From Sinomicrobium pectinilyticum (GTDB lineage Bacteria; Bacteroidota; Bacteroidia; Flavobacteriales; Flavobacteriaceae): a stretch of 64,000 nt of DNA. Position 1 is the first letter of the stretch, and every line of letters begins with the position of its first letter. This document shows, one piece after another, positions 565-64,000 of the stretch. The translations under genes were made by a program, and so were the position numbers. The stretch is taken from assembly GCF_003725735.1 (NCBI RefSeq), contig NZ_RJTM01000093.1, positions 1 to 64,000 of the forward strand, read 5' to 3'. A model generated the notes under the pieces. The model had not been told where the DNA came from, made no database searches, and saw only the letters and a list, made by a program, of their open reading frames with translations.

Positions 565-596
565 TTGGTTTAGATTTTTACTGTTGTTTATTTTTG
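565..596 (+). promoter_or_regulatory. Predicted Bacteroidetes-type promoter
   Basis: TTG at 565-567 is followed 21 bases later by TATTTTTG at 589-596, an exact match to the -7 consensus TAnnTTTG with an acceptable spacer. Transcription should start near 603. No open frame follows before the terminator at 643-680, so it may drive a small RNA or the leader of the oligopeptidase gene. Confidence 0.45.
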
Positions 597-602
597 GGGT
601 AG

Positions 603-680
603 TTTAACATGTAAATGTTAATTTAATAAGCACAGTAATTCCAAGAAGCTGTCTGTAAAAAGGCAGCTTCTTTTTTTTTA
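603..680 (+). ncRNA. Candidate small RNA of about 75 nt
   Basis: The stretch lies between a good promoter (565-596) and a strong intrinsic terminator, with no open frame. It would fold into two hairpins: TTAACAT/ATGTTAA at 604-621 with a GTAA loop, then the terminator stem. This promoter-hairpin-terminator layout is typical of a free-standing small RNA. No known RNA family is recognised. It could instead be a terminated leader of the peptidase gene that starts at 767. Confidence 0.35.
643..680 (+). terminator. Intrinsic terminator
   Basis: A 12-bp stem (AAGAAGCTGTCT at 643-654 with AGGCAGCTTCTT at 661-672, one G-U pair) has a six-base loop and is followed by a run of T. It points rightward, so something upstream on the + strand is transcribed. 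Confidence 0.75.
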
Positions 681-63775: not shown

Positions 63776-64000
63776 ATGTCAAGAAAGAGCAGAAAACAGT
63801 TTTTTGAGCATGTAGAGGTAACGGATGCCGGCGCCAGGGGTAAAGGCATAGCGAAGGCTCCCGATGGCCGGGTTATTTTTCTTTCCAACGCCATCCCCGG
63901 AGATGTCATCGATGTTCAGACCACCAGGAAGAGAAAAGCATATTTTGAAGGGAAAGCTACAAAATTCCACAAATATTCCGAAAAAAGACAGGAACCGGAA
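63776..64000 (+). CDS. rlmD: 23S rRNA (uracil-5-)-methyltransferase RlmD, N-terminal part
   Basis: The first 75 codons of a gene running off the right edge. FEHVEVTDAGARGKGIAKAP and VIFLSNAIPGDVIDVQ form a TRAM RNA-binding domain at the start of RlmD/TrmA-type uracil methyltransferases, which methylate C5 of U1939 in 23S rRNA. The methyltransferase domain is outside the window, so RumB-like or other TRAM enzymes remain possible. Confidence 0.8.
   Translation, partial: MSRKSRKQFFEHVEVTDAGARGKGIAKAPDGRVIFLSNAIPGDVIDVQTTRKRKAYFEGKATKFHKYSEKRQEPE

Follow-up and report, generated by a model that had tools for sequence, protein, structure and literature searches.

The intergenic region upstream of the dcp gene in Sinomicrobium pectinilyticum very likely holds a real structured RNA. 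The window analyzed here is the 64,000-nucleotide stretch of contig NZ_RJTM01000093.1 from position 1 to position 64,000 of the forward strand, and coordinates refer to it unless another contig is named. As a whole statement, we consider it probable, and the most likely reading, that the locus is a genuine structured RNA gene that is genus specific, multicopy, and independent and that acts as a regulator in trans. An RNA of about 135 to 140 nt, running from ~537 to about 675, best explains the data. Our verdict is that this is an ordinary kind of RNA but a new family, and that its design is unusual, with a 3′ part shared among the copies and a variable 5′ part.

A first-pass annotation made from the letters alone had placed a small-RNA gene at 565 to 680. 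The annotation was right that a gene is present there, although it misplaced the ends and probably misidentified the promoter. Conservation, covariation, the sister copies, and the terminator-like hairpin that follows each copy lend strong support to the broader proposal, a small RNA that stands alone upstream of dcp. The case for an RNA is built on compensatory changes and on the sister copies, not on a guess at a promoter and a terminator. The features discussed below are as follows.

380 to 408, no strand assigned: conserved upstream box, TTTATCGATAAA (380 to 391) and a second TTTATCGA (401 to 408), 21 bp apart
457 to 465, + strand: GGATATTTG, invariant at 6/6 dcp loci, which might serve the RNA as a weak −7 promoter box
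537 to 577, + strand: 5′ block conserved among the dcp copies, most of it unpaired
561 to 602, + strand: 13-codon frame, MVGLDFYCCLFLG and a stop, possibly coding
578 to 592, + strand: 5′ arm of the outer helix, with a bulge at 584, pairing with 625 to 638 with compensatory changes
593 to 601, + strand: unpaired loop TTTGGGGTA, TTTGGGGYA in 12/12 copies
604 to 621, + strand: inner hairpin of 7 bp, 604 to 610 with 615 to 621
625 to 638, + strand: 3′ arm of the outer helix, pairing with 578 to 592
643 to 679, + strand: intrinsic terminator, a hairpin (643 to 672) followed by a T run
738 to 745, + strand: TATATTCG, 3′ of the terminator, probably the −7 box of a separate promoter for dcp
767 to 2818, + strand: dcp-like M3 family metallopeptidase (Peptidase_M3, E 2.4e-146), a neighbor that lies outside the RNA

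A conserved unit upstream of dcp

We compared six Sinomicrobium genomes (labeled G000 to G005), that of the window and five congeners. The element lies upstream of dcp in all six, at 88 to 92% identity in the congeners. Across these genomes, 93 of the 104 positions between 537 and 640 are invariant, compared with 20 of 129 in the flanks (471 to 536 and 673 to 735), a contrast whose Fisher p of 8e-32 is descriptive rather than a strict test since the species are related. Counted by stretch, the positions identical in all six number 1/70 at 300 to 369, 23/43 at 370 to 412, 12/21 at 450 to 470, and 13/66 at 471 to 536; from there on they number 38/41 at 537 to 577, 55/63 at 578 to 640, 13/32 at 641 to 672, and 7/63 at 673 to 735. 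These counts place the beginning of the conserved unit near 537, and the start near 603 that had been proposed for the RNA is probably wrong.

RNAalifold gives the block at 537 to 577 only four pairs. We prefer to read it as the 5′ part of the RNA, the other choice being that it is the promoter. The block is not seen before the six copies of the hairpin found away from dcp (described below), except for its last few bases in the extra copy of G005. On the downstream side, the product of 767 to 2818 scores below the NCBIfam cutoffs for both Dcp and oligopeptidase A. Positions 1 to 300 are the start of the contig and contain no convincing gene, only one open-ended frame of 99 codons.

Base pairing and the terminator

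The outer helix (578 to 592 with 625 to 638) encloses the unpaired UUUGGGGYA and the inner hairpin at 604 to 621, which the first-pass annotation had correctly recognized as a first hairpin. Given the six dcp orthologues alone, in an alignment that was not fitted to our model and with no structure supplied, RNAalifold recovered the outer helix with 14 pairs, and all 14 are intact in all six species. Among these dcp copies, one pair of the outer helix has been swapped on both sides (U-A to A-U in S. oceani), and two further pairs have changed on one side only. The inner hairpin is invariant among the dcp copies and is rebuilt in the sister copies, with two-sided changes at 6 of its 7 pairs across 11 distinct copies. 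In the alignment of those 11 copies, which was fitted to the model and so favors structure, 96.8% of cells pair, versus 91.1% in shuffles and 32 to 42% in slid controls; 7 pairs changed on both sides, and at most 1 in 500 shuffles matched the observed value for each covariation measure. Seven of the 13 outer-helix pairs never vary in this alignment. When sequences are folded singly, the best fold of the extra copy in G002 keeps the outer helix and loses the inner hairpin, its centroid fold lacks the outer helix, and two longer stretches refold.

The strong terminator that had been called at the first pass is borne out: the stem at 643 to 672 has 12 pairs, is followed by a T run, and is kept with compensatory changes in the six species. 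Positions 601 to 680 fold at −23 kcal/mol, where shuffles average −11.0 (z −5.0, 0/200 shuffles as low), and 574 to 676 also fold better than shuffles (z −5.45, 0/200). The terminator had further been said to separate the RNA from dcp, a claim that gains support from a TATNTTCG box lying between the two at 6/6 dcp loci. The window's version of this box, TATATTCG, is probably the −7 box of a promoter for dcp itself.

Is the conserved block a promoter?

TTG at 565 and TATTTTTG at 589 to 596, 21 bases apart, form a match to the Bacteroidota-type promoter consensus, TTG/TAnnTTTG (as given in the passages cited from PMC7366714, PMC11697453, and PMC9723704). The first-pass annotation was right that such a match is present, but it is probably not a promoter. 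In the reading built on it, a sigma-A promoter would start transcription at about 603 and yield an RNA of ~75 nt made up of the inner hairpin and the terminator only, and the conservation of 537 to 602 would be that of promoter DNA. The −33 element of the Bacteroidota promoter consensus occurs over a range of spacings. With a spacer of 19 to 21 bases, this TTG/TAnnTTTG match is the only one on the + strand of 301 to 766, only 6 of 500 shuffles of this intergenic stretch contain one, and the match is kept in all six dcp copies.

We nevertheless consider the promoter reading unlikely. The presumed −7 box straddles the outer-helix arm (to 592) and the loop, and the helix that it overlaps remains intact in each of the six dcp copies and also in the sister copies, a pairing with 625 to 638 that promoter DNA would not need. 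Moreover, none of the six non-dcp copies has the TTG/TAnnTTTG pair (the extra copy in G005 alone has TAnnTTTG, without the TTG), and the run from TTTA to TTTGGGG measures 1, 2, 3, or 4 bases, varying between copies. A generic sigma-70 scan did not list the match. Because the promoter box lies in the conserved hairpin, the promoter, start, and length of ~75 nt first proposed are probably all wrong. The box would seem to be primarily part of the RNA hairpin, possibly doubling as a promoter in the dcp copies.

If the RNA begins near 537, its promoter would lie further upstream. There are two candidates there, neither of them convincing: GGATATTTG at 457 to 465, possibly a weak −7 box, and AT-rich sequence immediately 5′ of 537. 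Upstream of the RNA in all six species are also the two TTTATCGA boxes of 380 to 408, one of them inside a palindrome, which may be sites for a regulator.

The non-dcp copies carry a different pair of motifs, RGGACY and TATAA, 17 bases apart in five copies and 21 in one, a pair absent from all six dcp copies. The end of TATAAN lies 30 to 132 bases before the hairpin. These pairs amount to about three independent cases because the four copies at one site, kbl, share one origin. Across the six genomes, GGGACY-N14..19-TATAANTAA shows no general enrichment (7 matches versus 14 for a backwards control). Elsewhere in G000 (contig C133, 81931 to 81969), GGGACC-N-GTGTATAATTAA resembles the motif of the kbl copies; the shared hairpin was not seen in the ~400 bases after it, and the motif possibly belongs to another gene with a kbl-type promoter.

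Sister copies of the hairpin

We count 12 copies of the hairpin across the six Sinomicrobium genomes, 1 to 3 per genome. Besides the dcp site (6/6 genomes), copies lie at the kbl site in 4/6 (G000, G001, G003, and G005), between a gene for a RecB-like helicase and that for glycine C-acetyltransferase. One extra copy in G005 lies upstream of a gene with an Hcp/TssD domain, and one in G002 follows a gene for a type IX secreted protein and faces a convergent transporter gene. Two of the kbl copies were unseen by a model built from 10 copies and were recovered by it, on contig C67 of G000 (E 5.4e-6) and contig C13 of G001 (E 3.1e-5), and both sit at the same place upstream of kbl. What the sister copies have in common is the hairpin; their 5′ parts vary. 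This count omits six weaker matches (E 0.025 to 8.9), of which four were inspected (L073, L075, L078, and L079; the others are L076 and L077) and which we take to be chance. One of them, L073 in G004, was part of alignment A4 but, as it lacks both the loop and the inner hairpin, was not carried over to A5.

Each of the 12 copies sits between open reading frames and is followed by a terminator-like hairpin, which suggests that they are transcribed independently. The gene next to the G005 extra copy, in S. weinanense (L033 303 to 1445, contig C28), encodes Hcp/TssD and JAB-like toxin domains, and its product is likely, from its domains, to be type VI secretion cargo.

The terminator-like hairpin after each copy would also suit a cis-acting leader or attenuator of the next gene (dcp or kbl), in which hairpin and terminator switch read-through. 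A same-strand gene does follow 11 of the 12 copies, in 10 cases dcp or kbl, and the 13-codon frame of the dcp copies could be a leader peptide. We still regard a leader as very improbable because the next genes differ and are unrelated, one of them is convergent, and dcp and kbl have promoter-like boxes of their own after the terminator (TAnnTTTG at 4/4 kbl loci and the TATNTTCG box at 6/6 dcp loci). At the G002 extra copy, a leader role is excluded because the next gene is convergent. Antiterminator pairing, for its part, was not seen in the best folds.

An imperfect palindrome with a bulged base, found at unrelated sites, might also be a DNA element, such as a recombination or transposon-end hairpin, that has spread to several places and stands before terminators by coincidence. 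This seems to us extremely unlikely. The six genomes yielded only 12 copies, and 10 of these occupy two sites that are conserved from species to species; a terminator-like hairpin follows every copy on the same strand; and searches of phages and plasmids, and of viral contigs by pattern only, gave no match.

Origin as the 3′ UTR of an upstream gene is likewise unlikely at the dcp site, where a SusD-like gene upstream is separated from the conserved block by 311 bases in G002, 468 in G005, and 1386 in G003. The opposite-strand frame upstream of the dcp site in G001, which looks like a transposase, also counts against it. With leader and 3′ UTR both judged unlikely, a trans-acting RNA is therefore what remains.

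A short frame through the hairpin

The statement that the unit has no open frame holds for 603 to 672 as regards frames of at least 60 codons, but a 13-codon frame, 561 to 602, runs within the conserved block. The locus could accordingly be read as a short translated gene, or as an RNA that both codes and regulates. The frame is led by ATG and stops inside the loop in 6/6 dcp copies, with start and stop both kept; of its two changes, one is synonymous (GAT/GAC) and the other replaces Cys with Ser. A frame with the same end occurs in the G005 extra copy (MYFYCCLFLG from the last ATG, 24 codons from the first), a 35-codon frame passes through the hairpin of the G003 kbl copy, and an ATG-led frame enters the hairpin in 8 of the 12 copies.

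The remaining four copies (the kbl copies of G000, G001, and G005 and the extra copy of G002) have no in-frame ATG, however, and the end of the frame varies between copies while the RNA fold stays. Conservation also extends past the stop, through 603 to 640, and two changes are too few for a coding test. We read the frame as secondary because the fold is kept in all copies, and a coding role appears quite improbable.

Distribution and relation to known RNAs

The first-pass annotation had asked that the hairpins be conserved in relatives. They are within the genus, and outside it we found nothing. Model R1, with 17 first-look candidates scored in each of 299 genomes of the family, gave a match in three genomes, all Sinomicrobium. 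In 40 genomes searched with model R2, the six Sinomicrobium genomes yielded the full set of 12 copies, none with an E above 3.7e-10; the 34 other genomes of the order gave weak matches in nine (best E 0.012), and TTTGGGGYA was absent from the best match in the seven of these nine that were inspected. R2 was also applied to dcp loci, with ~1.5 kb of flank on either side, from 29 other genera; the best E beyond the window's own match was 0.12, and the search covered 30 loci out of the 36 matching genomes. Scanning named genome contigs for the pattern returned 12 matches, of which 7 are in Sinomicrobium and the other 5 lack the second arm. The best reading is that the RNA is specific to the genus Sinomicrobium, with the caveat that fast-changing relatives could be missed.

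Rfam 15 gave no match at gathering score anywhere in the window, and the window contains no tRNA or tmRNA with which the element could be identified. 6S-Flavo (RF01685) is a flavobacterial structured RNA of similar size. It is ruled out as the identity of the element: its covariance model finds nothing at E up to 1 in positions 1 to 1000 of the window or in 11 loci, and it scores above cutoff elsewhere, at a separate locus, in 6/6 Sinomicrobium genomes. Our literature search for Sinomicrobium together with small RNA found no reports.

In the passages cited here, the only Bacteroidota small RNAs with tested functions are GibS, FopS, and Rfp18, and our comparisons with all three are by description only. 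GibS of Bacteroides thetaiotaomicron is described there as intergenic and ~145 nt long, with a highly conserved, mainly single-stranded 5′ part (1 to 38), hairpins, and a terminator; it is conserved in its genus and has a noncanonical promoter motif, PM2 (PMC7366714). The Sinomicrobium RNA resembles it as an intergenic small RNA of Bacteroidota with an unpaired, conserved 5′ part followed by hairpins and a terminator, and differs in having a long bulged hairpin and an invariant GGGG loop. FopS, also of B. thetaiotaomicron, is reported as a paralogous family of 14 small RNAs, 9 of them intergenic and one derived from a 3′ UTR, with a common 5′ seed and lengths of about 65 to 70 nt (PMC11697453). 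The likeness lies in a multicopy, mostly intergenic Bacteroidota family; the difference is that the Sinomicrobium copies, 1 to 3 per genome, share the 3′ hairpin and vary 5′, which reverses the FopS pattern of a shared 5′ seed as published in the passages cited. Rfp18 of Flavobacterium psychrophilum, a member of the same family, Flavobacteriaceae, is described as a structured small RNA widely conserved in its genus whose deletion lowers the mRNA of two metalloproteases (PMC9723704). The Sinomicrobium RNA is likewise structured and genus-wide, and by analogy it may plausibly act like these three.

A possible mode of action

Read as a trans-acting regulator, the RNA would consist of a mostly unpaired 5′ stretch (537 to 577), a bulged hairpin (578 to 638) with the UUUGGGGYA loop, and the intrinsic terminator. 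The segments left unpaired (the 5′ block, the GGGG loop, or both) would base-pair with mRNAs in trans, and the shared hairpin would serve stability or protein binding. The data show conservation, covarying pairs, sister copies, and terminator-like hairpins, and from these we infer transcription, the start, action in trans, and mRNA pairing. Contact would most likely be made through the 5′ block, which is unpaired, and through the invariant UUUGGGGYA, and the loop at 593 to 601 is a candidate seed or protein site.

It is also possible, and we suggest it only tentatively, that this is a modular small-RNA family that arose within a single genus. Its 3′ module, which stays fixed (bulged hairpin, UUUGGGGYA, and terminator), would dock an RNA-binding protein, and exchangeable 5′ modules would set the target. 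The dcp version would then carry a frozen, unpaired seed of 40 nt, and the kbl and extra versions would carry other 5′ structures and share a promoter-like GGGACY-N17-TATAA, unlike the TTG/TAnnTTTG consensus of Bacteroidota. The sister set would test the origin of new regulatory RNAs within one genus.

Searches for complements of the two unpaired segments did not single out conserved targets. For the loop, there were 22 nonself sites versus 20 in the backwards control in the six genomes, and pairing of the loop with mRNAs for proteins with CHU_C (type IX secretion) domains was not supported. For the 5′ block, there were 22 sites versus 7 in the control, an excess that may reflect only that the control lacks a start-like word. 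Only 6 of these 22 sites are at starts of long open reading frames; by their first residues, no two look like the same gene and none recurs between species, and pairing of the 5′ block over start codons gains no convincing support.

The idea about the loop and CHU_C mRNAs arose from a single match: a coding sequence for a CHU_C type IX sorting domain in G000 (contig C31, 7737 to 7756; L125) is perfectly antisense to window positions 586 to 605 over 20 bases.
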